Below, piece after piece: positions 10,332-27,576 of a stretch of 64,000 nt of DNA. This stretch comes from an uncultured Oligoflexia bacterium. GTDB taxonomy: Bacteria; Bdellovibrionota; Bacteriovoracia; Bacteriovoracales; Bacteriovoracaceae. Each line of letters begins with the position of its first letter. Position 1 is the first letter of the stretch. The notes below the pieces were generated by a model. It searched no databases and had not been told where the DNA came from. It saw only the letters and a program-made list of their open reading frames with translations. Location: NCBI GenBank assembly GCA_937120495.1, contig CAKZJW010000086.1:1-64000 (forward strand). Reading direction: 5' to 3'. Both the position numbers and the translations under genes were made by a program.

Positions 10332-11045
10332 TTATACAGTTGCTTTTGCTAACTCTAGATCATATTGATATCTTTTTGTCGTAGCCTCTGTAAATTGAAT
10401 TCCAATCCCTGCAGGATATTTTCCCCTTGAAAAACTTTTTCTAATAATCACAGCTTCGAGAGGAATATATTTATCTGTTCCAATAAATAACTTTATCTTT
10501 ATAGTTGAGTTTCCTGGAATCTTATAGAGATGCTCTAAGTTTTCATCCACGATAAACATTCCCGTCTTTGATATATCATATGTTTTAGACCATATGTTTT
10601 GATCTTCATACTCGACGAGTACAATTATTTCTTTATTAAATCTTTTTGAACTTAGCCAGTATCTATAGCGTAAATCATGAAATACTTTGTAAATATCCTT
10701 TTGATAGAATCCAAGTGTTGAAACAAGAAAGATTAAGCTTGCACTAAGTGTTTGTGTTGACGAATAGGTACTTCCATATTCAGAGACAATAAAATTATTG
10801 AAAAAAATAAAAAAGTTTAATATTGGTAAGGCATAAAAAATACGTTTGTTTATTTGCATTGTAAGTATGCTCGCTGCGAATAACATAACCATTGTGCTAA
10901 TATTTATAAAAGTAAGCTTGCTTAGAATTCCTAGAATATCAAATAATTCAATTCTATATATGATTGATATTTGTATAGGGAAGGATGCAGCTATTAAAAA
11001 GAAAATAGCACTCATCAAAGGAATATAGAAAGGAACTTTTTTCAT
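10332..11045 (-). CDS. Membrane-anchored PilZ-domain protein
   Basis: 237 aa, with about four hydrophobic segments in residues 5-120 and a C-terminal PilZ-like beta-barrel at about 135-230. The DxSxxG motif of c-di-GMP-binding PilZ domains is clear (DISKTGMF, near residue 165), followed by strands ending in YPAGIGIQF. The upstream RxxxR motif is not clean (RYRYWLSSKR), so binding of c-di-GMP is likely but not assured. It lies 2 bp downstream of a lytic transglycosylase and downstream of the Pel-like operon, so it may belong to the same c-di-GMP-controlled surface programme; that is inference from position. Confidence 0.7.
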   Translation of the reverse strand: MKKVPFYIPLMSAIFFLIAASFPIQISIIYRIELFDILGILSKLTFINISTMVMLFAASILTMQINKRIFYALPILNFFIFFNNFIVSEYGSTYSSTQTLSASLIFLVSTLGFYQKDIYKVFHDLRYRYWLSSKRFNKEIIVLVEYEDQNIWSKTYDISKTGMFIVDENLEHLYKIPGNSTIKIKLFIGTDKYIPLEAVIIRKSFSRGKYPAGIGIQFTEATTKRYQYDLELAKATV

Positions 11046-11047
11046 AA

Positions 11048-12109
11048 TTAATCCTCGAAGTGATTACAATAACTTTTAATATTATTTACATATTTTCTCG
11101 CTTCACCAAGTTCTTTTGAATAAAGCCATTTGTTTTTGTGTCTTATAATATTTCTTTTCACGCGATATGCACCAGAGTTATAGCTGGCTAAAATAATATC
11201 GGTTTTTTTTACATTATCTAAATTTGTGTTTAGAAATTTTTGATTAGATTGGTTACCCCAGTAGTTTTCAAGTTGTGAAAGATAGAGGCTTCCACCTTGT
11301 AAACTTTTTAGTTCGTTTAATCTCCAGTCATTTTTTTCATTGATAATACCTCTGAATATTTTGTATTTTAAATCGATATAAGAGAGTTTTTCTAAGTTGG
11401 GATATGATTGAAAAGATGGATCAAGGCTTCTTATATCTTTGTCTGCAATCGGAGTTACTTGTGTTAGACCAACTGCCCTTGCAATACTCACTGCCTTTGG
11501 ATTAAAACTAGATTCTTGCGCAACGAGAGAGGCAAGAAGAATTGGATTTATTAAGTGCTTTTTTGCAATTGAATTCATTTGTTTAATTAAATAATTCTTT
11601 TTATCAAAAGGCTTTAAATGCTTTATTCTATTTTGATTTGTAAATGAGCATTCAGGCTCTTCAAGTTCATAGTAGAGAGGAGCATGATTCTCTTTATCAT
11701 AATAGAGAAATGTAATATCATGTTTTTTTATTGGGTTTAGAGCTAAGTTTTTAAATATTACTTTCGCTTTTGTATGTTCTTTATTGAACTCTAGGCTTTC
11801 TGTTTTTAACCAGCGGTGAACAATTTGACCATTATATAAAATATTGTATTGGAATGGTTCTCTTAGACCTTTTGGGTTCTCTACGGTAAATGTTAAATTA
11901 AAATTATCATGAAATAATTTAGACTTTGGAAATGAACTTATTTTTATGATGTCCTTTTTCTTTACAGCTGATGCAATAGTTCTAGAGCTAGAATTTGTAA
12001 GCTTTGTAAACAAAGACTCTGCTCCAAACGGAGTTGATGGGCCAGCACAACTACACAGAGAGTGAAGAGCTAAAATTGTAATAGTTCTTTTTACGATAAA
12101 AAAATCCAT
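11048..12109 (-). CDS. Lytic transglycosylase (SLT-type), probable lipoprotein
   Basis: 353 aa. The N-terminus has a hydrophobic segment ending in HSLCSCAG, a plausible lipobox, placing it in the periplasm on a membrane. Residues 195-345 form an SLT/lysozyme-like domain: LVAQESSFNPKAVS (catalytic Glu), AVGLTQVTP, and ASYNSGAYRVKR. It would cleave the MurNAc-GlcNAc bond of peptidoglycan with 1,6-anhydro product. The N-terminal 150 residues are beta-rich and unassigned. It lies 124 bp after the last Pel-like gene and 2 bp before the PilZ gene. No strong ribosome site is visible. Confidence 0.8.
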   Translation of the reverse strand: MDFFIVKRTITILALHSLCSCAGPSTPFGAESLFTKLTNSSSRTIASAVKKKDIIKISSFPKSKLFHDNFNLTFTVENPKGLREPFQYNILYNGQIVHRWLKTESLEFNKEHTKAKVIFKNLALNPIKKHDITFLYYDKENHAPLYYELEEPECSFTNQNRIKHLKPFDKKNYLIKQMNSIAKKHLINPILLASLVAQESSFNPKAVSIARAVGLTQVTPIADKDIRSLDPSFQSYPNLEKLSYIDLKYKIFRGIINEKNDWRLNELKSLQGGSLYLSQLENYWGNQSNQKFLNTNLDNVKKTDIILASYNSGAYRVKRNIIRHKNKWLYSKELGEARKYVNNIKSYCNHFED

Positions 12110-12233: not shown

Positions 12234-13070
12234 TTATTCTGATGACTTATGTATATAGTATAAACCTTTTAGTTTTGGATCTGTGACTAAAGGTAAAATA
12301 TTAAATTGTTTTGTATAGTTAAAGAACTTTTTTTGCTCATGACTGCTTTTAAGATATTCAATGGCAAATAATTGCTTATTGTTTCTATTGTAGTATCGAA
12401 AATGTTTTTCAAAGAATGTAGTATGCTTGAACTTATTCCTCTCACTTAAGTGCGCTTCAAGTGATGCCCCGTAAATCGAATGAAGAAAGTTTTTAGCTAT
12501 TTTAGGTTGCAGGTAATCAATAATATCTAAACCATTTTGAATAATTAACTTGAAGTTTTTATTATGTTTTTTAGCATAATTATTTATTTCTATAATTAAT
12601 AAGGCCATTCTTTTTGCATACAGTTTCTTATCTTCAAAACGATGAAAGCAGTCGACTATATCAAGGTAGGCTCCATCAAATCCATTTTTGATGATTTCCT
12701 TTGTATAGTTAAATATTATTTTCTTCCACTCTGACTTCCAGTACTTAACAGTGTAGTTCCCTTGCCATTGAGAATTTTCTGAAAGTATAAGATCTTTACC
12801 TATATTCTTATAATAAGGTCGATATGTTTCGGCTTCACCTATGCTCATATAGGATATAATTAGATTATTATTTTCTTTAAGTGCTTTAATTCTTTGTTTG
12901 CTTTGCTTAACTTTAGGAGCGGAGTTATAGAGGTCTATAACTATTGTTGAATCCTTTACGTCTTCAAAATCAAACTCTTGATAGTTTTGTAATTTAAAGA
13001 ATAACTTGCTTGATTCCTGGTGCTTAACGGTTGAGCAGCTAAAAAGTAGTAGTAATAGAAGGTATCTCAT
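12234..13070 (-). CDS. GH114 endo-alpha-1,4-polygalactosaminidase-like lipoprotein (separate PelA hydrolase domain)
   Basis: 278-aa lipoprotein (MRYLLLLLLFSC) made almost entirely of a GH114 TIM-barrel domain. Family motifs are ISYMSIGEAETYRPY (72-86), the W-rich GNYTVKYWKSEW (104-115), GFDGAYLDIVD (130-140) and later acidic residues (GASLEAH). This is the domain found at the N-terminus of PelA in Pseudomonas, where it hydrolyses Pel polysaccharide. Here it is its own gene at the end of the operon, overlapping pelG by 4 bp. Likely role: trimming or releasing Pel-like polymer in the periplasm or at the outer membrane. Family and context calls are strong; activity is inferred. Confidence 0.8.
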   Translation of the reverse strand: MRYLLLLLLFSCSTVKHQESSKLFFKLQNYQEFDFEDVKDSTIVIDLYNSAPKVKQSKQRIKALKENNNLIISYMSIGEAETYRPYYKNIGKDLILSENSQWQGNYTVKYWKSEWKKIIFNYTKEIIKNGFDGAYLDIVDCFHRFEDKKLYAKRMALLIIEINNYAKKHNKNFKLIIQNGLDIIDYLQPKIAKNFLHSIYGASLEAHLSERNKFKHTTFFEKHFRYYNRNNKQLFAIEYLKSSHEQKKFFNYTKQFNILPLVTDPKLKGLYYIHKSSE

Positions 13071-14449
13071 CGTTCTTCACCTATAGGTTGTCCCATGAAT
13101 GTATAGAAGTTGATGTCTTTCAACTTTTTGTCTAAAGAGAAAAATGAAAGTACAAAAACAAGCATAGTGCTGAGTAAATATCCTAGGCCTTGGTAGCGGT
13201 AATCAGCAAACTGAATAGTATATGTGAAAATCAGATTACTAATAAAAAAGATGAAGTAGTGAAGAAGAACTCTCTTATGATTTAAAAAATAAAGTAAAAT
13301 AATATTAATAATTAAAAATAAAACTTGTAAAAAAGCCCCTATTAATCCGTATTTAAAACTAGATAGCATTAATGAAGGGAGATAGAGTAGTTCTAAGATT
13401 TCTTCTGCAAAATACCAAATAACTAGAGTTACTCCTGTCTGTATTTTGATAAGTTTATAAATACTATCCTTTATACTCAAAATTATTTGTTGTGTGTTTT
13501 CTTCAAGAATGTCTAGTGGTTGTTTATTCTGTATAGCCTTGAAGTAGTATAGATATTTAGTATAAAAATTTGTCTCTACTTGAACTAGAAATATGGCAAG
13601 GCTTGGAACAATACTTAGGTATGCAAAAAACATTGCAGTGTCGTAGTATTGATTTGTATAAAATAGTCCAGAAACCTGTTTACCATTTGGGCCGAACCAA
13701 AAAATGAATTTATCAACCCATATTCCCAAATAATAAAACAGACCTACAAAGACTAATGTTTTATGTCGTTTGAAGTAGCGCGTAAATTCGAGTGAAGAAT
13801 AATCTAACCCTTGAAATTCACCAAAAAGATTTAAGCTCAGAAGGAGTGCAATTAATATTTGTCCAATTGAATAGCCAATTATATAGCCACTTAATTGAAA
13901 ATAACTACCTAATAGAGCACTTAGAAAAGCCGATGTTAATCCACCAACTAAGAAACTTAAGATAATTTGATGATAGTTCTTTGCGGCAGAAAGAAAAATC
14001 ATTGTTAGCCATACAATCATCACAGAACAGAAAAAGGCTATGCAAAATAATTTTTCGTAAACTGTTAATGCATCAATATAGCTATAAAAAATTGCGCCGA
14101 TAATTGCGCCTACGAAAACGAATAGAGTTGATAGATATAAAAAAGTACTTCTAAAGGTAGTGAAATCTTTATTGTAGAGCTGGTCTGCAATATACCTAGT
14201 TATGGGCATTTCAATTGCCCCAAATAAGATAAGACTAACTGCATATGAATAACATATTACTGATTTGAAAATATAAAGGTCATCAACGCCAATTTCACCT
14301 CTCGCTGCATAGGAAACGACAGCAATGGTTAGGACTGAGATAAGCCAAGGTCCTGAGGATATAATTATGGAGTATAGAGTTCCTTGTATACTTCCAAGTA
14401 TACCACCTTCATTAAAATAATTTTTTAAACGAAATCCAATTCCGGCCAT
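13067..14449 (-). CDS. pelG: PelG, polysaccharide membrane transporter
   Basis: 460-aa membrane protein with about 12 transmembrane helices. The N-terminal MAGIGFRLKNYF and the following SGPWLISV stretch are characteristic of PelG, a Wzx/MOP-like inner-membrane protein. In Pseudomonas it forms the Pel synthase/transport complex with PelD, PelE and PelF. The length matches the family (about 455 aa). It lies 2 bp after pelF and overlaps the GH114 gene by 4 bp, so all three are probably translated together. Confidence 0.88.
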   Translation of the reverse strand: MAGIGFRLKNYFNEGGILGSIQGTLYSIIISSGPWLISVLTIAVVSYAARGEIGVDDLYIFKSVICYSYAVSLILFGAIEMPITRYIADQLYNKDFTTFRSTFLYLSTLFVFVGAIIGAIFYSYIDALTVYEKLFCIAFFCSVMIVWLTMIFLSAAKNYHQIILSFLVGGLTSAFLSALLGSYFQLSGYIIGYSIGQILIALLLSLNLFGEFQGLDYSSLEFTRYFKRHKTLVFVGLFYYLGIWVDKFIFWFGPNGKQVSGLFYTNQYYDTAMFFAYLSIVPSLAIFLVQVETNFYTKYLYYFKAIQNKQPLDILEENTQQIILSIKDSIYKLIKIQTGVTLVIWYFAEEILELLYLPSLMLSSFKYGLIGAFLQVLFLIINIILLYFLNHKRVLLHYFIFFISNLIFTYTIQFADYRYQGLGYLLSTMLVFVLSFFSLDKKLKDINFYTFMGQPIGEER

Positions 14450-14451
14450 AG

Positions 14452-15954
14452 TTACCTATTCATTAAGTATTTGTTATAAAGTTTTAAGTATTTATTTATA
14501 GTAAATTTTTCTTGATAAAAGTTTAGAAATCTTTTCTTTGCAACTTCGCCCATCTGTTCTCTTAATTCATCATTTTCTAGTAGCTCTATTATTGATTCAC
14601 CTAATAGGTCACTTAAGCCAAAAGGAATTGTTCTTCCGCATGAGCCAAGAGCAATGTCTTCAGAACTTGTCCCATATATCAGTTCTTTACAGCTACCAAC
14701 ATCTGTCGCTACGGCTGGAATCCCAAAAGCGAACGCTTCTAGTAAAACTAGTGGTTGTCCTTCACTGATACTTGAAAGAACAATGATGTCGAGGTGTTCG
14801 TAGTAATATTTTAAATTGACCTTGCCAGTGAATTTAATAAAGTTCTTCAAGTCTAATAATTTTATAAGTGTTTTACATTCTTCAAAGTACTCTTCATCTT
14901 CATCGGTTGGCCCCATTATTAGAACTTCAATATTGGGTATTTTCTTTGAGATGTAGGCTATAGACTTGATAAACGTTTTTATATCCTTTATAGGTACAAC
15001 TCTTCCGACAAGGCCGATAATAAATGTATCATCTGGTTTCTTGTATAGGTTGCGATTTGGATCATCTTCTTCATATTGTAACTTTTTATAATTGATACCA
15101 TTTGGTATTATCTCAATTCTTTTCTCTTCAGCTCCAAGTTGAATTTGTTTTTGTTTGTTTCCATTGTAGAGTGTAGTGATTTTATCTGAGTGATTATAAG
15201 TTAGTTCGCCAAGGACTTTGAACTTTTGATACCACCAGTCTTTGAAGTAGGACATCTTCTTTTTAGCTTTGATTTCTTTATTGTTAGAATAGAGCCACTG
15301 ACTTTGCGATATTTCAATCTTCCTTTCGTGAGTGTAGATTCCGTGCTCTGTTAACAGTAGAGGCTTGTGGTATTTTTCTTTGGCAACAACTCCTAGTAAT
15401 CCTGCATAACCTGTACACATTGTGTGATAAATATTTGCCTTGGGTAGGTCCATAGAAAGAATTTTAAAAATAGGGAAGTTTGTGAACCTCCAGGTATAAA
15501 AGAAGTCTATGAACGATGGCGACTCATTATTTTTAAAGGTATTTTTATATTCCTTTTCCACAATATCCCACGACTCTTTACTAAAGAAGAGTTTTTCGGG
15601 ATCACAAACTCTAGTGTTTGGATCGAAGAAGGTTGTATATAGTTGGTGAATACTCTCTTCCCGTTTGAATAATAAGCTTTTTTCCAGAATTGATATTTGT
15701 TCTTGTGTTAAGCCTATTTCATGAGGTTCTGTCGAGTTCTCGCTAAAACTATCAAAAAGATACAGCTCTTTTATTAGTCTGACATTTCCAGGTACTGGGT
15801 ATTTATATTCTTGGTTTGGATCTTTCTTTGGGCCAATATAAACGATTGTATATGTAAGGTGAGGAGTTTCCTCAATCAGCTGGTGTACACATGAAGAAAC
15901 ACCACCTGTTATGTATGGATATGTTCCCTCTAATATTAGACAGACGTCACTCAT
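14452..15954 (-). CDS. pelF: PelF, cytoplasmic GT4 glycosyltransferase
   Basis: 500 aa. The N-terminal domain begins with LILEGTYPYITGGVSSCVHQ, the PelF signature (DUF3492 region). The C-terminal half is a GT-B, GT4-family domain with GLVGRVVPIKDIKTF near residue 310, the E-x7-E motif in SEGQPLVLLEAFAFGIP, and GSCGRTIPFG. PelF polymerises UDP-GalNAc/GlcNAc into Pel in the species studied. It starts 4 bp inside the HEAT-repeat gene and ends 2 bp before pelG. The donor sugar in this organism is inferred from family. Confidence 0.88.
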   Translation of the reverse strand: MSDVCLILEGTYPYITGGVSSCVHQLIEETPHLTYTIVYIGPKKDPNQEYKYPVPGNVRLIKELYLFDSFSENSTEPHEIGLTQEQISILEKSLLFKREESIHQLYTTFFDPNTRVCDPEKLFFSKESWDIVEKEYKNTFKNNESPSFIDFFYTWRFTNFPIFKILSMDLPKANIYHTMCTGYAGLLGVVAKEKYHKPLLLTEHGIYTHERKIEISQSQWLYSNNKEIKAKKKMSYFKDWWYQKFKVLGELTYNHSDKITTLYNGNKQKQIQLGAEEKRIEIIPNGINYKKLQYEEDDPNRNLYKKPDDTFIIGLVGRVVPIKDIKTFIKSIAYISKKIPNIEVLIMGPTDEDEEYFEECKTLIKLLDLKNFIKFTGKVNLKYYYEHLDIIVLSSISEGQPLVLLEAFAFGIPAVATDVGSCKELIYGTSSEDIALGSCGRTIPFGLSDLLGESIIELLENDELREQMGEVAKKRFLNFYQEKFTINKYLKLYNKYLMNR

Positions 15955-17888
15955 AAAATAGCCTCCATATATGAAGGGTAGTGATTAGAAAGATTATTGG
16001 ATTTCATTATAAAGTCATGTTGATTTAAAAGAAAGTTATAGAATATATCTTTATTGCTTAAAAGAAGCATTTTAATAACATAAGTTTTAACTACATCATC
16101 TAGTTCTTTAAAATGAAAATCTGTAATAAGACTAAGAGTTTTGACATCTAGAGTGACATTTTTATTATATAGGAATGTTACATATACGATATAGTCCGGC
16201 AAACCTAGCTTTGATTCTTGCATTAAGTGGTTGATTCGTTGAGGGACTTTTTCTTTATTATCTTCAAAATAGTTATCTAATGCTAAATTTTTTGCAGTCT
16301 GATTTAGTCTTAAAAGATGAGTTAAGAGTAAATATTTAATTGCATAAATATCTAGCGAGGAAGTGAAATCCTTTGTGATATAAACAAGGTTTCTCTCTGA
16401 CAAATAGAAAGGATTGAAGTTGATAATATGTATTAATGACTCAATGAGAAGACTTCTTGTTAGCTCATTTTCGTGATGAGCAGAGTCTTCAAGTAATTTA
16501 TCCACAACCTTTTGGTGATGATTTGTTTTATATGCTCTTATTGCTGCATAATGAATGCTTTCAGATGAACTTTCATAGCAATAGGTTAAGAATTTATCAA
16601 TGGGTTTAGAGTGTCTCTTGATTGCATAAAAGCTTAAGTGGTTTAATATTAGTAGTAATAAATTTTCGGACAATGCTTCTTTCTGTTCTAATAGCTTTAG
16701 AAGATGAGGCTGTGAGATATTTCTTTTATTGTTTAAAAGTGATCTATAGGCGTAAAACTGTACATGCTTGTCATCTGATGATGTGAGTTCTTCTAATTTC
16801 ATCAAAGACATTTTGTCGTTATAAGACTGTAAGTTAATAAGTGCCATTTTTCTTATCATTTGGTTATCTGTCTTTTTAATTATTTCCATAAAATGGTCTC
16901 TACAGCGGTCATCTTGAAAATCAGAAAGTATGGATAGTATATAGTATTGAGTTCGTTTGTTTCTTTTGTAAAAATTTTTAATTAGTGTTGATATTTTTTT
17001 CTTAGTTGCAATATTATAAATACTCCATTGTGCATGTCTTACTTGATCTTGATTGCTTTCACTGTCCATAATATTTATTAGAAACTCAAGCGCTTTTGGA
17101 GATTTTAAGTATGCTAGTTCATCTATAAGGTGTTTACGACTTTGTTTTGTACAGCTCTTGTATGATTTCTTGTAGACTGGTATTACTAGGTTTTCTAAGT
17201 TCTTTCTGGCAGATGTAATTGCAGCATTTGCAATTTTTTCATCAGTAGAGGTGATTTTGTTTTTGTATAATAAGTAATCAAAGGCAGTTCCCGTTGTCCC
17301 AATTGCCTCAATAGCTCTTTTTTGCAAAGAGTGTCCTTCTGTGCGAATTATTTTTCTAAGCTCCTTATTTCCTCTGGACTCGACAAGAGCTTGAAGTGTG
17401 TCTATAGCTTTTTCTTTTAGTGGTAGACTTGATTCAGAGAAAACAGTTAAAACTAAGTTTATCAAAGAATGAAACTTATAATGGGAAATAATTCCAATTA
17501 TGTATTCTTTTTCTTTGAGGGATATTTGATTCCATACTTTTTGAATAGTAAATGCTTTATGGCTGTTAATAATATTTGAGTTTTTGAAGTAATTATCTAG
17601 GGCCGTATCTGCACGATGAACAATAGGTATATTTTCTGAATTTCTTAAAGTACATAAGATAAGGAGTGCGTAGTGTGAATTTACAAGGCTATTTCTCTTT
17701 AAGAGAGTTTCACAAAGTGAGATCGCAAGCATGTTCGAGTCACTATTTTTATTGGAAGTGATTCTTTTGAATAAAGAATTTAGATCAGCTGAATTACTTA
17801 GATTCATAAGATCATTGATAGCCTTCTCTCTGATAGAAAACTGTCTTTGACTGAGAGCTTGGAATATATTTTCTATTTTATTCTGCAA
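15951..17888 (-). CDS. HEAT-repeat protein embedded in the Pel-like operon
   Basis: 645 aa, helical throughout, with no signal peptide or membrane segment, so cytoplasmic. The sequence is built of HEAT/armadillo-type helical pairs (for example residues 170-200, 260-300, 330-400, 440-500), with recurring Leu and Ala-Ile patterns such as AIEAIGTTG and ALINLQSYND. No enzymatic motif is visible. It overlaps pelE by 11 bp and pelF by 4 bp, so it is very probably made with them. I know of no HEAT-repeat member in the standard pelABCDEFG operon. A scaffold role for PelE/PelF at the inner membrane is my inference. Confidence 0.75.
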   Translation of the reverse strand: MQNKIENIFQALSQRQFSIREKAINDLMNLSNSADLNSLFKRITSNKNSDSNMLAISLCETLLKRNSLVNSHYALLILCTLRNSENIPIVHRADTALDNYFKNSNIINSHKAFTIQKVWNQISLKEKEYIIGIISHYKFHSLINLVLTVFSESSLPLKEKAIDTLQALVESRGNKELRKIIRTEGHSLQKRAIEAIGTTGTAFDYLLYKNKITSTDEKIANAAITSARKNLENLVIPVYKKSYKSCTKQSRKHLIDELAYLKSPKALEFLINIMDSESNQDQVRHAQWSIYNIATKKKISTLIKNFYKRNKRTQYYILSILSDFQDDRCRDHFMEIIKKTDNQMIRKMALINLQSYNDKMSLMKLEELTSSDDKHVQFYAYRSLLNNKRNISQPHLLKLLEQKEALSENLLLLILNHLSFYAIKRHSKPIDKFLTYCYESSSESIHYAAIRAYKTNHHQKVVDKLLEDSAHHENELTRSLLIESLIHIINFNPFYLSERNLVYITKDFTSSLDIYAIKYLLLTHLLRLNQTAKNLALDNYFEDNKEKVPQRINHLMQESKLGLPDYIVYVTFLYNKNVTLDVKTLSLITDFHFKELDDVVKTYVIKMLLLSNKDIFYNFLLNQHDFIMKSNNLSNHYPSYMEAIL

Positions 17889-18948
17889 TTTCCACCTCTG
17901 CCCAATATTCTGATCTTTCCTTTATTAATCCAATTGGTGTCTTGGTTCTTTTTATCATATTACAAAGTTGTACAACTTTATCGTATTGGCCTAGTTCATA
18001 AAATGCTTCTGCTTCGTAAAATGAAATTTTAGCTATATCCTCATCTTCTAGATTTAATTTTTTTGCTTGAGAAGCAAGTAAAAGCATTTCTTCTTGGAGC
18101 CCTAGTTTAAGATAACAATTTGCTATACTTGTATAAAGAGAGAAGTTCTCTGGCTGCTTTACTAGCAAGTGCCTAAAATCTGACAGTGCTTTTTCTAAAA
18201 ATAAATTTGATAAAGACTTATCTAAAAGGTTTAGCCATACAATACTTGTGTAACTATGCGCTCTCTTTAAATAGTTCTGAAGTTGATTAGGATACTTCTC
18301 TATATTTTCACTAAGAATATCTATTCTAGATAATAGTTCTTGCTCTAATTTCCCTAGAGCATTATTCGCCATATACCTTACTTCATACTCATCATCTTGT
18401 AGGGCTAGTCTTAATAGCTTTATAGAGTTTACTGTCTGAAACTTTGAAAGCATGATACAAGCATTTACCTTCGTATCAGTTTCATCACCTTGAATAATAT
18501 CGACATATGCTTGTAGCTGAGCAGAGCTTAGTAGTAGTTCATGATAATCGAGATCTCTTTCGTGATTTAGTTTAGCTGACTGGTACAGCATCGTTTGCTC
18601 AAAGTTTTTATCTCGAGAAATATCTCCAGAATCAAGCAGTAAATTTTCTTCCTCTTCTTTTATTTCTTCAATTAAATCAATTTCTCTTTTCTTATAGGCA
18701 TTTCGATAAAAAGGCTTGAGCAAATTAAAGGTGATAAATGCGCAAGTAAAAAGGATTGGTACCGCGATATCCATTATACATATAGCTAGCACCCAAGAGG
18801 TAATTTTTAATTTTTGCTTAAGTCCATAATACAATATTCCAGTAGAGAAAATATTGATTAAATAAAACCAATATAAAGAAGTTTCGTACTTTAAAAAAAG
18901 AAAAACCGAAAAAGATTTAAATAGGATTGAAAGAAGTATCAAGACCAA
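17878..18948 (-). CDS. pelE: PelE-like membrane-anchored TPR protein
   Basis: 356 aa. Residues 1-80 hold three hydrophobic segments; residues 85-130 are charged, 140-215 look like HEAT-type helices, and 220-356 are TPR-like (for example SLYTSIANCYLKLGLQEE and FYEAEAFYELGQYDKV). This matches PelE, which has N-terminal membrane helices and cytoplasmic TPRs and bridges PelD and PelG. It overlaps pelD by 10 bp and the HEAT gene by 11 bp. Assignment rests on architecture and operon position more than on motifs. Confidence 0.75.
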   Translation of the reverse strand: MVLILLSILFKSFSVFLFLKYETSLYWFYLINIFSTGILYYGLKQKLKITSWVLAICIMDIAVPILFTCAFITFNLLKPFYRNAYKKREIDLIEEIKEEEENLLLDSGDISRDKNFEQTMLYQSAKLNHERDLDYHELLLSSAQLQAYVDIIQGDETDTKVNACIMLSKFQTVNSIKLLRLALQDDEYEVRYMANNALGKLEQELLSRIDILSENIEKYPNQLQNYLKRAHSYTSIVWLNLLDKSLSNLFLEKALSDFRHLLVKQPENFSLYTSIANCYLKLGLQEEMLLLASQAKKLNLEDEDIAKISFYEAEAFYELGQYDKVVQLCNMIKRTKTPIGLIKERSEYWAEVEIAE

Positions 18949-20321
18949 GCAGTATCTCCAAATTTATTTAAAAACTCTTGGGATGTTTCTTCTTCTGAGT
19001 AGTCTAAGTAGCTAATCTGAGTTTTGAAAAGTTCTTTTAGTTTTCCACTTTGTGAGAAAAATTCTAGTTCTGCCTCTATTCGTGAGCCAACCTTTTGAAG
19101 ATATTCACTTTTTCCTATTGTAGTGAGTACAATAAAACTATTGTTCTGATTGGATTCAGCAACAACATCCATCTTTCTAGTGGATGAAAGTATTATCTTT
19201 GTAATTAGTTTCTTAATATCTTTTTGTTGTATTGGGTTAAGTTTATCTAAAAAGGGAACATTTATCGACATAGCGGCCAAAGGATTGGGATTTCGCTTGT
19301 TTTGGTCGATAATTTCATCGATTCTTTCAAGCAAGTAGTTATATGTATAAATACCATATGTTTGATTGAAGATTGAATTTGAATTCAATTGATCAAATTC
19401 AGATGCATGCTCTAATGATTTTCCAAGCCACTGTCCATAAAGTTGTATTAGTTGAAAGTTATGAGGGGTGTATTCTAGAAAAGGCATTTTTGTTACTGCG
19501 ATAATACCAAAGAATTCCTCACTTTGATAAACTGGAGAGGCAATAACAGAAACATTATTATCTAGGGCCTTCTTTTGATTAAATATATCTTTTATTGTTG
19601 TTAGCTTTTTACTGACAAAGCATTCTCGTATAATAGGGTCTTCAATGTAAGTGCAGTTTAAGTTGCTCGGTAGAGAAAGGTCGGAGCGACTACTGAAAGC
19701 TAAAATCAAAGAATGAGTACCTTTGTCATATTTATATATCGCCATTTCATCAACTGAAATTTGGTCGTTCAAAACATTGAAAAAGTTTTGAAATAAAGAA
19801 GAAGATTCAAGGGTGTTTAATTGTTGAATCATTCTGAAAATATTAGAAGTCGTATCTATCTTGTTTACGAGCTGCTTTTTTAATTCAAAGGATTCCTTGT
19901 CCAAAAAATCTACTTTCTTAATTAGAGTGTCTGTAAGGTTTTGTTTTTCTTCTGATGAACTCTTAAACATTTCAAGTTTATTTATTAGACTTGTTCTGAA
20001 TTCACCTATAAGTGTTGAAAGTATAACTAGAGTAATTGGAATTGAAAGGTATTGAAAGGTGAGAATTGTTTCTACTGCCTGGTAGTCAACACTTTGATTT
20101 AGCAAGAATAGATATTGGATCGTTAGGATAAATGAAATTACTATTGAAAATCGCAATCCGTAATACGCTGATAGTAAGATACTTGTAACTAAATATGGAT
20201 GTGGGGCCATCCCCATGAATGAAGGGTTGTTTGTAGTCAGAAAACTTCCAGCTAGAAATAGTATGATCGGAGTAGCTATATAGAATATTCTTCTTTGAAT
20301 AGTCTCTGTAAAAAAAGTCAT
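18939..20321 (-). CDS. pelD: PelD-like c-di-GMP receptor with GAF and degenerate GGDEF domains
   Basis: 460 aa, in the family order: about four transmembrane helices (9-115), a coiled linker (115-160), a GAF domain (about 165-310) and a degenerate GGDEF domain (about 325-450). The c-di-GMP inhibitory site is intact: RKMD at 382-385, exactly five residues before the position of GGDEF, which reads NQNNS (391-395) and so cannot be catalytic. This is the known PelD logic, in which c-di-GMP binding switches on Pel synthesis. It overlaps the receiver-like gene by 4 bp and pelE by 10 bp. Confidence 0.87.
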   Translation of the reverse strand: MTFFTETIQRRIFYIATPIILFLAGSFLTTNNPSFMGMAPHPYLVTSILLSAYYGLRFSIVISFILTIQYLFLLNQSVDYQAVETILTFQYLSIPITLVILSTLIGEFRTSLINKLEMFKSSSEEKQNLTDTLIKKVDFLDKESFELKKQLVNKIDTTSNIFRMIQQLNTLESSSLFQNFFNVLNDQISVDEMAIYKYDKGTHSLILAFSSRSDLSLPSNLNCTYIEDPIIRECFVSKKLTTIKDIFNQKKALDNNVSVIASPVYQSEEFFGIIAVTKMPFLEYTPHNFQLIQLYGQWLGKSLEHASEFDQLNSNSIFNQTYGIYTYNYLLERIDEIIDQNKRNPNPLAAMSINVPFLDKLNPIQQKDIKKLITKIILSSTRKMDVVAESNQNNSFIVLTTIGKSEYLQKVGSRIEAELEFFSQSGKLKELFKTQISYLDYSEEETSQEFLNKFGDTAWS

Positions 20322-20659
20322 GCAATAATCCTATTAAAAAGGTCAGCCTCAATAAGAGGTAATGACATTACTGATACTTTGTTTGTATTTATTGTTTCTT
20401 CCTCTTTCTTTGTAAAGTCTCTACTAGACAATAAATACATACTTGCAGTCTTATTTGTTGTACGTAATTTCTCGAGAAAAGAGGTTGAGCTTATACCATT
20501 TAGAAATTGATCTATTAATATTACTTTGTAGTTCATTGATTCTTCAATTTTTGTAGATAGTGAGACTTCTCTTTGATGAAAAGACATCGTCTGCATTATT
20601 TCTTGGATCGTTTGGTCGCCTCGATCTCTACTGCTTAAAATTAAAATATCTAAACTCAT
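20318..20659 (-). CDS. Stand-alone receiver-like protein in the Pel-like operon
   Basis: 113 aa with the alternating strand-helix pattern of a response-regulator receiver and no output domain. An Asp at the phospho-acceptor position is present (VILIDQFLNG, Asp50) and a Ser pair follows strand 4 (YLLSS, 78-79). The paired acidic residues after strand 1 are altered (LILSSRD) and the conserved Lys before Pro is missing (MSLPL, about 98-102). It is therefore a degenerate or atypical receiver. It overlaps pelD by 4 bp and starts 1 bp after the pelB-like gene. A regulatory role in the Pel complex is inferred from position. Confidence 0.6.
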   Translation of the reverse strand: MSLDILILSSRDRGDQTIQEIMQTMSFHQREVSLSTKIEESMNYKVILIDQFLNGISSTSFLEKLRTTNKTASMYLLSSRDFTKKEEETINTNKVSVMSLPLIEADLFNRIIA

Positions 20660-20660
20660 A

Positions 20661-23414
20661 TTAAAACCAATTGTTAAAACCTAGTGATATAGTTGTTGTT
20701 TTATTGTTTGGAAGCTCACTTTTTTCTGATGATATTCCTGCCCTTATAAAAATCTTACTTGATCGATTATAGTTGTATTCTAAACCTTCCTGAATATTAT
20801 AAAAATCACCAAAGTTAATCTCTCTAGCAGAATCTCCGCCTAGATAAAAATCAAACTGATGTGAATATTTATTAAAGACTTTATTTCTGTGTCTCAGGTT
20901 TAAAGCGTATCCGAAACCGTTTTTTGCAAATATGTTTTCATACAAAAAGTCCCGTTGAGCTGATTGTGGAGCCACTCTTAAACCGTAAGTCCAATTTTCA
21001 TAGAGCTTCTTGTTGTACTGTAGATTAAGAGTTTGAATTGTTGCTTCATCCTTAGAGCTGTGGTTCTCAGCATGAAATACACTGTATTTTGCAAACAACT
21101 CAATATAGTGCTGTGTTTCTATGTAATATTCAAAATAAGCTGAGATAGTATCTTTTTTTGATTCATCTAGTTTGTTTAGATTTTCAAATTCATAAACGGC
21201 TTTGTTGAGCTGAGAAGATAGTCTGTAGAATAATTTCTGAGACGGCGAGTGATTAAGGCTTGCACTTAAATAAGTCGATTTTGTTCTACCTTGATTTATT
21301 CCGGCCATGAATTCTATATTTTTATTCTGGCTTAGATTTGCCCCGAGAACGATGGATGTCTCAAATGAGCCTTCAGCTAAATTGCTTGCATAGTAATTTG
21401 AACGATTGATACCAGCATAAAACGAAGTTGATTTTTTGATTAATTGGTAATCATGAGAAATAAAGCTGAAACCAAGATCATTTGATGTGTAGTTAAGGCT
21501 ATACTGTTGCTCCCACGCAAGTTTTCTACTTAAATAAATTTCTTTTTCATGATAGTCGCTCTCTAACTGCAATAGCCTCTGTTCATTTAAGTTTGAGTTG
21601 CTTTTTAGTGATGTAACTATTTTTTTTGCTCTTTGAATTTTGTTCATATCAAGGAGCAAGTATGCCAACTTAAACTTTGCATCTCTGTGTTTCGGATGTT
21701 TGCGTATAAACTTGTAAAGAATATTTGCGGCATCTTGCATTTGCTTTTCATCAATTAAGCAATTTGTTTTTAAGTCAGTATGAGTAAAGCTTTTCAGGTT
21801 GTTTTTACTTCTAATCATTTCTTTGCACAGAGCACGAGCCTTATTTAAATCTGTTTTTAGATATACTTGATAGAGAAGTGCTTTTTTATATACTGTATTT
21901 CTTTTGATTCTTTTTGCGTAATCTAGTGCTAATGCATAGTTCTGCTCGGTGAGTTCTAGTTCACTAAGAGTCATGTTTAAGTCTTGATGGTAAGGATTTT
22001 GTTCAATAAGTTCGCGGAACAAGATGTTTGCTGCGTCAGTTTTTTTATTTTTTTGAAGTAGAAGTGCATATTGATATTTTATATCGAAGTTGTAAGGGTT
22101 TTTCTTATAAAATTTTTCAAGTTCCTTCTCATAAGACTTGTGTCTTTTTAGTTTTTGAAGAAGATATAAAATCTTTTTTTGAACTTGAGAAATAATTTTG
22201 TTGGACTTGAGCTTTCCTTTGTTTTGGACAAAAAGAGTCTCAAACTGATTAACATTAAAGGTAGACCTTCTTTTGAACGTTTTTAATATTCGGTACTGAA
22301 TATTAAGCGCCTTTTGCGTATACCCTAATCGCTCATAAAGATTTGAGAGTGACTGGTAGTACTGGATTCGCCTTTTGTTTAATCTTATCGAATTTTCATA
22401 GTGTTTTATTGCTAGCTCAAAGTTCTCTATACGTTCGTAGATTAAGGCCGCACGGTATTGACGACTTGCCGATCTAATAGTTGATAGCTTTGCGAGTATG
22501 GAAAGTGTTTTTTTCTTGTTGGGCACGTACGAGTAGTATTCTGCAGCATCATAAGCTCTGTCATACTCATTGGGATTAAAATCAAATAGACGCTCGTTGA
22601 TTTGAGCATTACTTTTTTTATCATTGAGTTCAGCGTAAAGGTATTGTATCTTTTCGAGTTCTTTGTATTTGTTATCAATCGACTTAGCTGTATGGTTTTC
22701 AAGAAAACGTGGATTTTGATAAAATTGTTGGCCATCTCGAGAGTTTGCAAAATATGCTAAGTAGCTTATAAGGGCATTTTTAGTTTCACCCTTGATTTCA
22801 TAGGCTTGAGCAAGATACTTTTTTAGGTGAATTTTCTCTGGATTAACTTTTTCAATCTTTCTAATATTGTTGATTACACCATCAACATTTTGCACACTCA
22901 GAAGGTAGGCTAAATTTACTTCAAGCACTTTGGGGCTTTTAGATTCGAAAAGCAATCGGCCAATTCTTTTTGCATCGGGGTATTTTTTTAGCCATAGGTA
23001 GCCATTTAATATACGGATTAATTCATCGTAATAACTTTTATTATCTTTATTTAAAGAGATAATTTCCTCGTCAACTTTTAAGGCTTTATATGTAAAACCT
23101 CCCCATGTGTAGAGCTGAGAGAGATCCTTTTTAAACTCAATGTTTTTAGGTAAAACCTGCGTAAGCTTTAATTGTATATTTGTAGCTTTGGAAATATTCC
23201 CATGTATAACGAAATAGTCTTTTAGTTTTTTTAGTACAGGTATTGAAGCAATGTTTTGGCTTTTCGACTTATCAAAATAGTAAAGAGCCTCGTCATACTT
23301 AAAACTATTAAAGTAAATAATACCCATTTTTGCATCATTTGGAATGCTAAGAATCGTAAGCACTGTGATCAAAGTTAAGAAAAGGATTACTTTTGGTAAT
23401 TCAGTTAGAGTCAT
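20661..23414 (-). CDS. pelB: PelB-like TPR / outer-membrane beta-barrel export protein
   Basis: 917 aa. An N-terminal hydrophobic segment (about 8-24) leads to a long periplasmic array of TPR-type helices (about 28-630; for example ALIYERIENFELAIKHYE and LAYLLLDMNKIQRA). Residues about 640-917 are alternating aromatic beta-strands ending in the outer-membrane signal FNNWF. This is the PelB arrangement, where TPRs guide the polymer to the barrel; Pseudomonas PelB is longer (about 1190 aa). It overlaps the deacetylase gene by 14 bp. No separate PelC lipoprotein, which crowns PelB in Pseudomonas, is seen nearby. Confidence 0.82.
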   Translation of the reverse strand: MTLTELPKVILFLTLITVLTILSIPNDAKMGIIYFNSFKYDEALYYFDKSKSQNIASIPVLKKLKDYFVIHGNISKATNIQLKLTQVLPKNIEFKKDLSQLYTWGGFTYKALKVDEEIISLNKDNKSYYDELIRILNGYLWLKKYPDAKRIGRLLFESKSPKVLEVNLAYLLSVQNVDGVINNIRKIEKVNPEKIHLKKYLAQAYEIKGETKNALISYLAYFANSRDGQQFYQNPRFLENHTAKSIDNKYKELEKIQYLYAELNDKKSNAQINERLFDFNPNEYDRAYDAAEYYSYVPNKKKTLSILAKLSTIRSASRQYRAALIYERIENFELAIKHYENSIRLNKRRIQYYQSLSNLYERLGYTQKALNIQYRILKTFKRRSTFNVNQFETLFVQNKGKLKSNKIISQVQKKILYLLQKLKRHKSYEKELEKFYKKNPYNFDIKYQYALLLQKNKKTDAANILFRELIEQNPYHQDLNMTLSELELTEQNYALALDYAKRIKRNTVYKKALLYQVYLKTDLNKARALCKEMIRSKNNLKSFTHTDLKTNCLIDEKQMQDAANILYKFIRKHPKHRDAKFKLAYLLLDMNKIQRAKKIVTSLKSNSNLNEQRLLQLESDYHEKEIYLSRKLAWEQQYSLNYTSNDLGFSFISHDYQLIKKSTSFYAGINRSNYYASNLAEGSFETSIVLGANLSQNKNIEFMAGINQGRTKSTYLSASLNHSPSQKLFYRLSSQLNKAVYEFENLNKLDESKKDTISAYFEYYIETQHYIELFAKYSVFHAENHSSKDEATIQTLNLQYNKKLYENWTYGLRVAPQSAQRDFLYENIFAKNGFGYALNLRHRNKVFNKYSHQFDFYLGGDSAREINFGDFYNIQEGLEYNYNRSSKIFIRAGISSEKSELPNNKTTTISLGFNNWF

Positions 23415-25479
23415 TTATTAACTCCATGTATACTTTTTGTTTTAACTTTTTAAGTTTTAATTTGTATGTGTTTGGTTTTGTCTTTGTAATGTTAAAACCT
23501 TTTGTTTTTTTTATTTTTTTATTGCTTACAATAACCAGTTCTTTTCCATAAAGAGAGTTAAATTGAAAGCTTATTTTATTATCTTTTGATTTATAGTTAC
23601 TAATAAGCCCTTGACTTGATTCAATGAATGTTTGCTCTGTTGGCTTATTGTCTATTTTTATTTGTGCATCTTTCTTTGATTGATCAAGATGGATGTAGGT
23701 ACTTCCGTTTTTGTGATTAAATCCTACAATATTTTTTGACTCTAGCATGTTTGGATATACTACCTTATCGTATCGAAAAGTTTTAATCTCATCAGCATTT
23801 GTGATTTTGAAAGAGTTGTTTTTAGTTTTGAAAACATTCACTTTCGTGAAATTTTGTGCAAGCTTTATATAGTGGGATGTTTTAATCGGAATTATTTGTT
23901 GAGTTAGTGACCATTCATACAGTGATTGTAGAGCAATTAGTGCACTTCTTTTTTCAGCACTATAAAAATGATAGTAAATATTGATTGGCTTAATTCGAGT
24001 CGGAACTTCTGTATTTCTAAAAGTTTCAATAGCTTTACTAAATCCACTAAAAGGGCCCTGCCAAAGATTGGTGTAAGTATTTTCATTGGACATTGATGAA
24101 TATATTTGTAGGTAGGGTCCAACTTTTCTATAGAGCGGATACAGGTGTGTTAAGCTTGGGTATCGACTATCAAACCTTGAGTCACCACCATTCATATTTA
24201 AAAAACCATTTTTATAAATGACTTTAAGGGCTTCTTCTTCTGGACGACAAGAACCTGACCAGAAAAGAACATTTGTTATATTTTTTTCTGTCGCAAACTT
24301 ATTAACAAAGTCCATTGAGTCTTCAATTTCAAATTTATAATCTAGTTTTTCATAATTAGGTATATCGTAAGCTACAATAATTTTACTTTTTTTAGCTTTC
24401 TTTATATCGGCATAAATTTCTAGCTCTGCTTTGTCTGGGATTTGCATCCAGCTTAGTGGGTGTGAGTAGGTATGTGATGCGAGCTCTATATAAGGTGACT
24501 TGTAAAAATCTTTTACTATCTTAGTTATTCTTTTACTTCCTAGAAGGGCTTCGTCAATTTCAGCCGCAACTATTGATGCCGTCACAGGGAGTTTGAACTT
24601 ATTGATTACTCTGTTGAGGATTATTTCTCCGCACAGAGACTTTCTATCTATGAGAGATACACTTATAAATGAATCACCGTCAATATGAGAATAAAAAATT
24701 CGATTACCAAAAAGAGTAGTTGTATCTGGAATTGGGTAAAGTTCTTTCTCGAAAAGCCAATCGATTAGAAGGTGAGGGTTTATTCTCCATTGAGTTACAT
24801 CGTTAAAGTCATTCTGGTAAATCTCATAGCCGCTAGCTACAAAAAATATTTTTTTGTTTTTGAATATAACGTCACTTGAAGTCTTTTCAAACTTATTTCT
24901 CAGTCTAAGAAGAACTGAGGTTCCCTTAAGTGCTTTAAGACCTTTGTATGGAGATATTTCATTTTTTAAGCTTCTTTCATACTCTATATTTGAACTTGGT
25001 GTAAGCATCTCTAGGCTAAGTGCAAGTGGATTTTCAAGATAGTAGTTACTAAGCGAAAAGCCTAATGGCTTTATAGCCTTATTAATATAATTTAAGCTGA
25101 CATCTTTTTTCTTGTCCGTTGTTATAAACGGCAGGTGACCGAGAATAAGAACCTTTTTATTCTTTTTAGAAAACTCAGTGATAAGCCTTAGTACATTCTT
25201 GGGTTGAAAGTTTGATTCGTCAGCAACCCAACTTATTAAAGCTTTGAAGTTTTTAATATTTGAAAATATTGATTTTGGAATTTTTTTTCCAATATCAAGG
25301 TACTTTGCCTTTACACCGTGATGATTTAATAGGACTTCAAGTTTTTGATGGGTAAGGCTTTGGATATAATCTTTTGAAGGTGTTTCTGTGCTGTCCCATA
25401 AAACAAGAACTTCTCTTTGGATAGGTTGAGCTGCTGCAACTTGTAGAAGGCATAGAGTTAATAGTAAAATCCTGATCAT
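23401..25479 (-). CDS. pelA: PelA-like periplasmic polysaccharide deacetylase (without hydrolase domain)
   Basis: 692 aa with a signal peptide ending near residue 17 (VAAA-Q). Residues 22-245 form an alpha/beta region of Rossmann-like character. Residues 255-500 form a carbohydrate-esterase fold: HIDGD (265-269) with the catalytic/metal Asp pair, and ASHTYSH with His336 and His340 as metal ligands. The C-terminal 150 residues are beta-rich. This matches the middle and C-terminal part of PelA, which de-N-acetylates Pel. The GH114 hydrolase domain is absent here and encoded separately at 12234-13070. It is the first gene of the tight operon, 41 bp after the pseudo-protease gene. Confidence 0.8.
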   Translation of the reverse strand: MIRILLLTLCLLQVAAAQPIQREVLVLWDSTETPSKDYIQSLTHQKLEVLLNHHGVKAKYLDIGKKIPKSIFSNIKNFKALISWVADESNFQPKNVLRLITEFSKKNKKVLILGHLPFITTDKKKDVSLNYINKAIKPLGFSLSNYYLENPLALSLEMLTPSSNIEYERSLKNEISPYKGLKALKGTSVLLRLRNKFEKTSSDVIFKNKKIFFVASGYEIYQNDFNDVTQWRINPHLLIDWLFEKELYPIPDTTTLFGNRIFYSHIDGDSFISVSLIDRKSLCGEIILNRVINKFKLPVTASIVAAEIDEALLGSKRITKIVKDFYKSPYIELASHTYSHPLSWMQIPDKAELEIYADIKKAKKSKIIVAYDIPNYEKLDYKFEIEDSMDFVNKFATEKNITNVLFWSGSCRPEEEALKVIYKNGFLNMNGGDSRFDSRYPSLTHLYPLYRKVGPYLQIYSSMSNENTYTNLWQGPFSGFSKAIETFRNTEVPTRIKPINIYYHFYSAEKRSALIALQSLYEWSLTQQIIPIKTSHYIKLAQNFTKVNVFKTKNNSFKITNADEIKTFRYDKVVYPNMLESKNIVGFNHKNGSTYIHLDQSKKDAQIKIDNKPTEQTFIESSQGLISNYKSKDNKISFQFNSLYGKELVIVSNKKIKKTKGFNITKTKPNTYKLKLKKLKQKVYMELINDSN

Positions 25480-25520: not shown

Positions 25521-26345
25521 TTAGGGGATAATTATGTCGGTTCGCGTTATGTATTCATATCCACTTTTACCATTGTATTTTGAGGGAACGAGACAATCTC
25601 CTCGAGTAGAACTTTGGCTTGGACCGTGGGAGTAAACGCCTATGACTTGTGACTTTGAATTGAAAACAGGAGATCCTGAATTACTCTTAGCAGCATCGAC
25701 TGTCGCTTTAAAGAAGCTTTTATAGATCTTCTTAATATTTGCTTCTGTTGATAGTTTTAATGGCAAACCATGTGGAGAGCCAATCATATAAATATTATCA
25801 TTTAGTTCAGGTGATGCAGCAGCTAATTCTAGTGGCTGTATGTCTAGAACTTCTTTTGTTAGTTCTATTAGAGCAAAGCTTGTTTTGTATTTTGTAGAGT
25901 ATTTTCTTTTTAAGATCTGCTTACACTTATAAACATGTTCCTTCTTGCTAGTTATTGGATTGTGATATTTAGATTTTTTTGTGTAATTAAAGACCCATGA
26001 ATTATTGTCACAATCGAATTGGTTTTTAACACATGTCGCACTTGTTAGTAGTTTGTTTTTATTTACTAAGAAACCTGTGCATTTACCCACGCTATATTGA
26101 TTTGAAAATTTAAAGCTTGAGCAATAATTAAAAGCTCGAAGACTTTGAGTCTGTAAACGATAGTAATCGCCTTTGTCGAGAAGTGCCTTTTTATCAACTT
26201 GAATTGCAATTGCTTTTGATTGGTCTTTGATAAGGTTATCATCTATTTCAAAATAATCTTTGCGGGAATCTTCAGCGTATACTGACTTATTTTGTGCACA
26301 AACATACGAGGATAAAACAATACTAAAGAGAATAAAAAATTTCAT
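25521..26345 (-). CDS. Secreted trypsin-fold protein lacking catalytic His and Asp
   Basis: 274 aa from the ATG at 26345, chosen because it has an AAGGAA ribosome site and begins the signal peptide (MKFFILFSIVLSSYVCA). The fold is trypsin/S1-like: KCTGFLVNKNKLLTSATC, FALIEL, YMIGSPHGLPL, and SNSGSPVFN with Ser223 intact. The usual AAHC reads SATC (Thr104 instead of His) and the Asp before FALIEL is Ser156. Two of the three catalytic residues are missing, so it is probably a non-proteolytic binding protein or has unusual chemistry. It starts 7 bp after the Nramp-like gene. Confidence 0.75.
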   Translation of the reverse strand: MKFFILFSIVLSSYVCAQNKSVYAEDSRKDYFEIDDNLIKDQSKAIAIQVDKKALLDKGDYYRLQTQSLRAFNYCSSFKFSNQYSVGKCTGFLVNKNKLLTSATCVKNQFDCDNNSWVFNYTKKSKYHNPITSKKEHVYKCKQILKRKYSTKYKTSFALIELTKEVLDIQPLELAAASPELNDNIYMIGSPHGLPLKLSTEANIKKIYKSFFKATVDAAKSNSGSPVFNSKSQVIGVYSHGPSQSSTRGDCLVPSKYNGKSGYEYITRTDIIIP

Positions 26346-26352
26346 AATTTCC

Positions 26353-27576
26353 TTAAATTTTAAGACTGATAAAATATAGACTAAAACACGTGAAAAAGAC
26401 AAGACCGATATAACATAGAACGATTTCAGGCCTTTTGTAGCGGTGTTTCTCTGGAATTTCATCACTAATTATGACTTTGAAATTTAGATACGCGTATATA
26501 GGGGCAGCAACAAATGAGACACTCGTCGCTATATCAACTAGAAGTTTCATGTTTTTAATATAGAAACTAAGTATTACACTTGCACCAATTGAAGTTAGCA
26601 TCACCCAAAGCGTTTGAGACTTTAATACATTATAAACTCCAAATTCTTTAAAGCTCTCGCTTGTAATTCTACCAAATGCATCTAGGCAAGTTATAGTTGT
26701 GCTAAGCATTGTTGTAAATGCCGCAGCTGCGATAAGAATATATGCCCAACTGCCTAAAGAGTTTGTGTAAAGTGAGATTAATTGAGAAGAAAATCCTGTT
26801 GCACTTGCTGCAAATTTCTCTCCTGTTGGGTGCATGATTATTGCTCCAAGCGAAAGGAAAGCTATTGCTAAAATCGCAGTTCCAATAAAACCGATATTAA
26901 AATCTAGGAGAGAGTCCTTTATTGAAATTTTAGAATCTTTTAATTTTGCTACTGTCCAAAGAGAGTGCCATACGGGGATATCCATTGGTGCAGGCATCCA
27001 GCCTATAAGTGCGATAAAGAAAAATATATCTGCTGTATTTAAAAATGAAAATGATCTTGTTGGCGTTTCACTAGGTGTAATTGTTGTAAAGGATGCGATA
27101 ACTGAAAAAAGAGTTGTTACTGTTAGAAGAATTATAACAAACTTAATAAAGCTATCTAGAATTTGATATTTGCCTATAATAATCAACAAAGCAGAAAAAG
27201 TTAAAATGATATATGCTTGAGAAATTAAATTGATGGGTAGGCCAAATATTTCAGAGAATAAACCTGCACTCACTATCGTTACGGCGGCTTGAATGGTGAA
27301 CATAGTTGTTAAAGTCATTATTAGAAAAGTTGCTACGGCCCAGCGACCTTGTTTTCTGTATGCTGAAAGTAAGCTTTTACCTGTAAGTGTCGTGTAGAGA
27401 GGGCCGATTTTATAAAATGGATATTTTAATACATTGGCCAAGAGGATTACCCAGACTAATTCAAAGCCGTAGTTAGCACCTGCTCTAGTGGATTGGACAA
27501 GGTGGCTTACTCCAATTGCAGCAGCAGCATAGAGAAGACCAGGGCCAAGTTTATTAATGGTACTGCGAAGCGACAT
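26353..27576 (-). CDS. Divergent Nramp-family membrane transporter
   Basis: 407 aa with about 11 transmembrane helices and the overall Nramp fold sequence (LGPGLLYAAAAIGVSH at the start, FGRI, and TTTITCLDAFGR). Canonical Mn/Fe transporters have DPGN in helix 1 and a Met-Pro-His motif in helix 6. Here the helix-1 position reads GVSH and helix 6 reads WMPAPMDIPVWHS. It therefore belongs to a non-canonical branch whose substrate may not be Mn2+ or Fe2+. An AGGA ribosome site precedes the ATG. A 17-bp inverted repeat lies 15 bp upstream of the start. Confidence 0.75.
   Translation of the reverse strand: MSLRSTINKLGPGLLYAAAAIGVSHLVQSTRAGANYGFELVWVILLANVLKYPFYKIGPLYTTLTGKSLLSAYRKQGRWAVATFLIMTLTTMFTIQAAVTIVSAGLFSEIFGLPINLISQAYIILTFSALLIIIGKYQILDSFIKFVIILLTVTTLFSVIASFTTITPSETPTRSFSFLNTADIFFFIALIGWMPAPMDIPVWHSLWTVAKLKDSKISIKDSLLDFNIGFIGTAILAIAFLSLGAIIMHPTGEKFAASATGFSSQLISLYTNSLGSWAYILIAAAAFTTMLSTTITCLDAFGRITSESFKEFGVYNVLKSQTLWVMLTSIGASVILSFYIKNMKLLVDIATSVSFVAAPIYAYLNFKVIISDEIPEKHRYKRPEIVLCYIGLVFFTCFSLYFISLKI

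Follow-up and report, generated by a model that had tools for sequence, protein, structure and literature searches.

In the window, the whole stretch of 64,000 nucleotides from an uncultured Oligoflexia bacterium that was analysed, an operon of nine minus-strand genes at positions 12234-25479 encodes what we read, with a probability of roughly 0.7, as a complete and probably working machine for a Pel-type (alpha-1,4-GalNAc/GalN) exopolysaccharide of a distinct subtype, designated REC-HEAT. The window genome is a 3.3-Mb draft, 91% complete, in 150 contigs. All nine open reading frames listed in an earlier sequence-only reading were confirmed at the same coordinates (Table 1), as was their tight packing: at six of the eight junctions the neighbouring frames share 4-14 bp (PelA/PelB 14, REC/PelD 4, PelD/PelE 10, PelE/HEAT 11, HEAT/PelF 4 and PelG/GH 4), and the other two are gaps of 1-2 bp. 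When the products were checked against profiles for PelA-G, as that reading had proposed, PelD, PelF, PelG, the deacetylase and the hydrolase passed with their active-site residues kept. Its gene identities also stood for PelE and the HEAT protein, while its receiver proved to be degenerate, its "GH114" protein falls into the TM1410/GH191 branch and is relabelled here, and, apart from the TPRs, its PelB-like protein did not match canonical PelB significantly by sequence. The folds discussed below were assigned by prediction.

Table 1. Genes of the pel-type operon in the window, from the 5' end of the operon
Product	Position	Strand	Basis
PelA without hydrolase domain, 692 aa, secreted: mixed alpha/beta and CE21-type deacetylase	23401..25479	-	phmmer, family profile, catalytic residues
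PelB-like exporter, 917 aa	20661..23414	-	AlphaFold2 architecture, Foldseek
Degenerate stand-alone receiver (REC), 113 aa	20318..20659	-	orthologous slot in relatives, residue table, alignment
PelD: TM helices, GAF, degenerate GGDEF, intact I-site R382-K-M-D385	18939..20321	-	profiles
PelE: N-terminal TM segments, then HEAT/TPR cytosolic part	17878..18948	-	Pfam, family profile, hydropathy
HEAT-repeat solenoid, 645 aa, no TM segment, between pelE and pelF	15951..17888	-	HEAT_2, model, synteny
PelF, GT4 polymerase	14452..15954	-	NF038011 equivalog
PelG, inner-membrane transporter	13067..14449	-	PF16933, full length
GH191-type (TM1410-like) endo-alpha-galactosaminidase lipoprotein, the PelA hydrolase half as its own gene	12234..13070	-	profiles, catalytic pair, lipobox

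The synthase genes were identified mainly from profiles. PelG matched PF16933 over its full length with 407.7 bits (E=8.5e-122, cut-off 29), and PelF matched the NF038011 equivalog with 467 bits (cut-off 100). The match of PelD was weak by single sequence, and PDB searches with the window PelD or PelB sequence alone were uninformative. A profile made from the subtype only (A8) matched the solved PelD 4dmz with E=8.8e-10, and a profile that includes known PelDs gave E=2e-22 with the RxxD motifs aligned. The GGDEF motif of the window PelD is degenerate and its c-di-GMP I-site RxxD is intact. Pel is known to be controlled by c-di-GMP through PelD (PMC2170427, PMC7112168), and the system described here is probably c-di-GMP-responsive. 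PelE showed Pfam matches to HEAT_2/TPR and N-terminal membrane segments by hydropathy, and the family PelE profile matched canonical PelE loci, the best match being 1e-19 in Pseudoalteromonas.

The two activities that are combined in one protein in canonical PelA are encoded by separate genes at opposite ends of the operon. The deacetylase matched the solved PelA of P. thermotolerans (PtPelA, 9cgy) with E=9e-65 by phmmer, and its family profile spans only residues 256-861 of PtPelA (E=8.7e-113). It is a CE21 PelA deacetylase with its motifs: the catalytic residues H265/D267/D269, H336/H340, E466 and H504 are kept and are invariant or nearly so in the family, and the same residue set has been described for PelA (PMC12022489). 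The hydrolase is a lipoprotein of 278 aa with an invariant lipobox cysteine (Cys12). It matched GH114 (PF03537) with E=9.5e-22, and its profile matched TM1410 (9eux) with E=3e-56 and the PelA hydrolase (5tcb) with 1e-9. Its D137/E205 align with the catalytic pair D156/E225 of TmGH191, and the TM1410 family is now classified as GH191 alpha-galactosaminidases (PMC12054363). The window hydrolase shares with these enzymes the sequence family, the catalytic Asp/Glu pair and the lipoprotein form, and differs solely in the place of its gene, last in the operon.

Several variants of these two genes were observed among relatives. A locus of the same subtype carries a fused hydrolase-deacetylase PelA of 959 aa with GH114 and deacetylase parts (L116:13304-16183). 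In another, the GH191 slot after pelG holds a TPR protein of 309 aa whose N-terminus resembles that of a lipoprotein (L031:1087-2016). The deacetylase and hydrolase genes are missing from the operon in Halobacteriovorax, but their loss was ruled out, since both sit together elsewhere in the genome as a divergent head-to-head pair away from the core (L122, L123). The two halves of PelA therefore still travel together.

The window exporter fits PelB by its predicted architecture. The AlphaFold2 model (pLDDT 86.9) consists of an N-terminal membrane helix (6-22), a superhelix of TPRs (27-605), a stalk helix (611-631) and a barrel of exactly 16 beta-strands (634-916). A short helix separates strands 7 and 8, at the position that is occupied by Plug-I in P. 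aeruginosa PelB (PMC12141448). Foldseek with this model returned mostly TPR proteins, with BcsC at rank 6 (E=2.8e-11), and comparison of the barrel with the canonical PelB barrel by hhalign gave a weak probability of 25%. In the literature, the PelC ring sits on PelB (PMC12141448), and an interaction between PelA and the PelB TPRs has been reported (PMC12022489). The PelC profile used here was checked on the solved PelC and detected the independent positive control of Cupriavidus with 6e-64. No PelC hidden elsewhere was found by this profile, with no match at E<=1 in the window genome and none in 15 further family genomes, several of them 97-100% complete. One genus of the same subtype (g128) has PelC (~1e-21); in two loci of this genus the PelC gene sits immediately upstream of the receiver gene. 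Nitrosospira (L074, genome G369), which has fused PelA, PelB and PelD-G, gave no PelC match in either the operon or the genome. PelC is thus present in part of the HEAT subtype and absent from a non-HEAT locus, which indicates that the loss of PelC is separate from the gain of HEAT.

The HEAT protein matched HEAT_2 with E=1.6e-17. Its model (pLDDT 90.6) is all helical, the protein has no membrane segments, and Foldseek returned generic HEAT solenoids and scaffolds only. Among 29 aligned sequences there is no invariant polar residue, with only Leu270 and Ala380 near-invariant, so a scaffold fits better than an enzyme. The gene is the signature of the subtype: in each of the 31 related loci it immediately precedes pelF, and in all 29 that have sequence on the other side it immediately follows pelE. 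By contrast, no HEAT gene was found in the comparison pel loci (about 44 surveyed, mostly Pseudomonadota), which comprise seven on plasmids and 27 from a Pseudomonadota sample plus Nitrosospira, Spirochaetales and SZAS-1. The proposal of a distinct Pel subtype is upheld by the fixed positions of the receiver and HEAT genes in related loci and by the absence of HEAT from the comparison loci.

The receiver of the window has kept Asp50 and a Ser and has lost the acidic pair and the switch Lys, so that the full receiver residue set is not present, and Pfam ranked NARF above Response_reg. The same slot in most relatives is filled by an ordinary receiver, 22 of 25 members matching Response_reg. The decay in the window counts against the proposed reading, as it could be a sign that the regulatory layer is on its way out. 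In loci of the second phylum-level group described below (L103-L106, L108, L110, L111 and L116), a second stand-alone receiver (REC1) was observed at the 5' end of the pel operon, upstream of the hydrolase or deacetylase. Five loci (L028, L031, L034, L035 and L037) have lost the RxxD I-site of PelD and have an intact receiver; four (the window, L030, L033 and L055) have kept the I-site and have a decayed receiver; no locus has lost both. It is conceivable, if doubtful, that two interchangeable switches act on the Pel synthase of this subtype, c-di-GMP at PelD and receiver phosphorylation, of which lineages kept one or the other, with HEAT as the coupling element. The pattern of losses is suggestive only, coming from few, related and phylogenetically clustered loci (about 0.28 by simple counting).

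A rearrangement unique to one genome was ruled out by the synteny comparison called for in the sequence-only reading: the same gene order recurs in relatives, and the layout is therefore far beyond chance. The full nine-gene order is present in several genera of the window family, which includes records named Halobacteriovorax, Bacteriovoracaceae and Bdellovibrionales (L028, L029, L030, L032, L034, L035 and L037, and L033 with pelA cut at the contig end). Variants within the family are L036, without the receiver, and L031, with the TPR protein in place of the hydrolase; Halobacteriovorax (L025, L026) keeps the core pelB-REC-DE-HEAT-FG. The core REC-PelD-PelE-HEAT-PelF-PelG was also found in two other families of the phylum (L051-L055). 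A second phylum-level group comprises 46 genomes, of which two are named, in deposits as Nitrospira sp. and Deltaproteobacteria. It mostly has the order REC1-hydrolase-deacetylase-PelB-REC2-PelD-PelE-HEAT-PelF-PelG. A 23,949-residue "open frame" in genome G408 was discarded as an artefact of masked N.

A single origin of the REC-HEAT subtype is possible. In the PelF+PelG tree without alphaproteobacteria-like loci, the HEAT loci grouped together (0.996) with one changeover, and one broader analysis gave the same result (SH-aLRT 92). In the other analyses the HEAT loci did not form one group, and one of these required three changeovers.

Next to the operon, 41 bp separate pelA from the end of its upstream neighbour, a trypsin-like protease gene. 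From the GTG at which it was called, this frame (window 25521-27576) shares 113 bp with an Nramp-like transporter; a start about 40 codons later (MKFFILFS..., a signal peptide) is the better fit. On the other side, 124 bp past the hydrolase gene, the same strand encodes a lytic transglycosylase (SLT) together with a membrane PilZ protein (window 10332-12109). The PilZ protein has four TM segments and is a possible c-di-GMP effector. These two were rejected as conserved downstream partners because they do not lie beside the pel operon in relatives.

The operon was compared with three known arrangements. With pelABCDEFG of P. aeruginosa it shares the PelA deacetylase residues, the PelB plan, as predicted by the model, of TM, TPR, stalk and 16-strand barrel, a PelD with GAF and the RxxD I-site, PelE, PelF and PelG. 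However, the hydrolase of P. aeruginosa is the GH166 domain of PelA, whereas the window has a GH191-type lipoprotein with its own gene at the far end; PelB has 917 aa as compared with 1193 in the literature for P. aeruginosa; and the window operon is without PelC and has the extra HEAT and receiver genes. The pelDEADAFG operon of Bacillus cereus (PMC7112168) likewise has a deacetylase-only PelA, a separate hydrolase gene and no PelC, but it has no outer-membrane export, its hydrolase gene is divergent and outside the operon, and no HEAT or receiver gene is described. Azospirillum and similar Pseudomonadota (L087, L138-L149) have separate genes for a GH114-type hydrolase and the PelA deacetylase; among them, L145, L146 and L148 gave no PelC match, and L146 and L148 have a receiver gene upstream. 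These loci differ from the window in that HEAT is missing, the hydrolase adjoins pelA and is not at the 3' end, and many have an extra ORF between pelB and pelC/pelD.

From these comparisons, the two features that had been taken as oddities of the locus, the split PelA and the missing PelC, are real in the window but are not distinctive. A split PelA without PelC is already known from Gram-positives (PMC7112168) and was also seen in alphaproteobacteria-like loci, where split PelA is common; annotations of Azospirillum and Cetobacterium show it too, as do many Pseudomonadota loci, which rules it out as a novelty. PelC, for its part, is absent in Nitrosospira and present in one genus of the subtype. 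What appears to be new here is the pair of HEAT and receiver genes at fixed places in a pel operon, for which no paper was found in the open-licence literature. Nothing relevant on pel in Bdellovibrio or Bacteriovorax was found among open-licence papers either. The family of the window is known for predators, and a link of the operon to attachment in a predatory bacterium had been suggested. Of 129 family genomes, only about 16 have full-length pelG, and the single other genome from the genus of the window is without it; since most family genomes lack the gene, this link is unsupported.

We weighed the reading of a working Pel-type machine against other explanations of its product and state. 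The same synthase fold and export plan might serve a different polymer, with another amino sugar or acetylation pattern. The PelG of the subtype shares only about 28-31% identity with that of Pseudomonadota, the added parts could reflect another product, and a published caution is that the polymer of divergent operons may not be the same (PMC7112194). However, both modifying enzymes, the PelA deacetylase and the hydrolase of the GH191/TM1410 branch, match enzymes of alpha-1,4-galactosamine polymers with their catalytic residues kept, and we consider a different product quite unlikely. A decaying, non-functional operon in the window genome, to which the lost receiver pocket and the genus-mate without pelG might point, is very improbable against nine intact and tightly coupled frames in which all checked catalytic and I-site residues are kept.

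Two further alternatives concern single components of the Pel-type machine. HEAT and REC could be co-transcribed passengers or separate regulators that stand outside the synthase complex. The degenerate receivers of the window, L030, L033 and L055 and the missing one of L036 show that REC can be lost while the rest of the operon stays. HEAT, on the other hand, stays beside pelF in every one of the 31 loci, which span two phylum-level groups and include Halobacteriovorax, whose pelA and hydrolase gene have left the operon. The HEAT reading frame also overlaps those of both neighbours; the passenger reading is unlikely. We assign a similarly low chance to a PelC that is present but too diverged to be detected, or whose ring role is filled by another lipoprotein such as the GH191 protein. 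The incompleteness of the window draft and a weak, below-cut-off CsgG-like match elsewhere in that genome (E=0.13) leave some room for this, but the profile that detects PelC in Cupriavidus and g128 found none in the 15 further family genomes, there is no spare small ORF between pelB and the receiver, and GH191 is a (beta/alpha)8-barrel enzyme family and not the PelC fold.

In the Pel-type machine that we propose, PelF would polymerise UDP-GalNAc and PelG would carry the chain across the inner membrane, both working inside a PelD/PelE complex that is switched by c-di-GMP at the I-site of PelD. The HEAT protein may serve as a cytosolic solenoid scaffold or adaptor of this synthase complex, with a bridge between PelE and PelF as its most likely role. 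An extra input beside PelD would come from the receiver, which would depend on phosphorylation in most relatives and act as a non-phosphorylated adaptor in the window lineage. In the periplasm, the hydrolase-less PelA would deacetylate the chain on the PelB TPRs; export would then proceed through PelB with no PelC ring, and chains may be trimmed or released by the separate GH191 lipoprotein.

Pel serves as a model of c-di-GMP-controlled synthesis and export of biofilm sugars in bacteria, and PelC was formerly used as a marker gene for finding pel operons (PMC7112168). The REC-HEAT subtype would be an example of a Gram-negative Pel machine that does without PelC and includes a conserved, predicted cytosolic solenoid. 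With this subtype, two questions become testable, namely for what purpose PelC is truly required and whether a polysaccharide synthase can be the direct target of a receiver.
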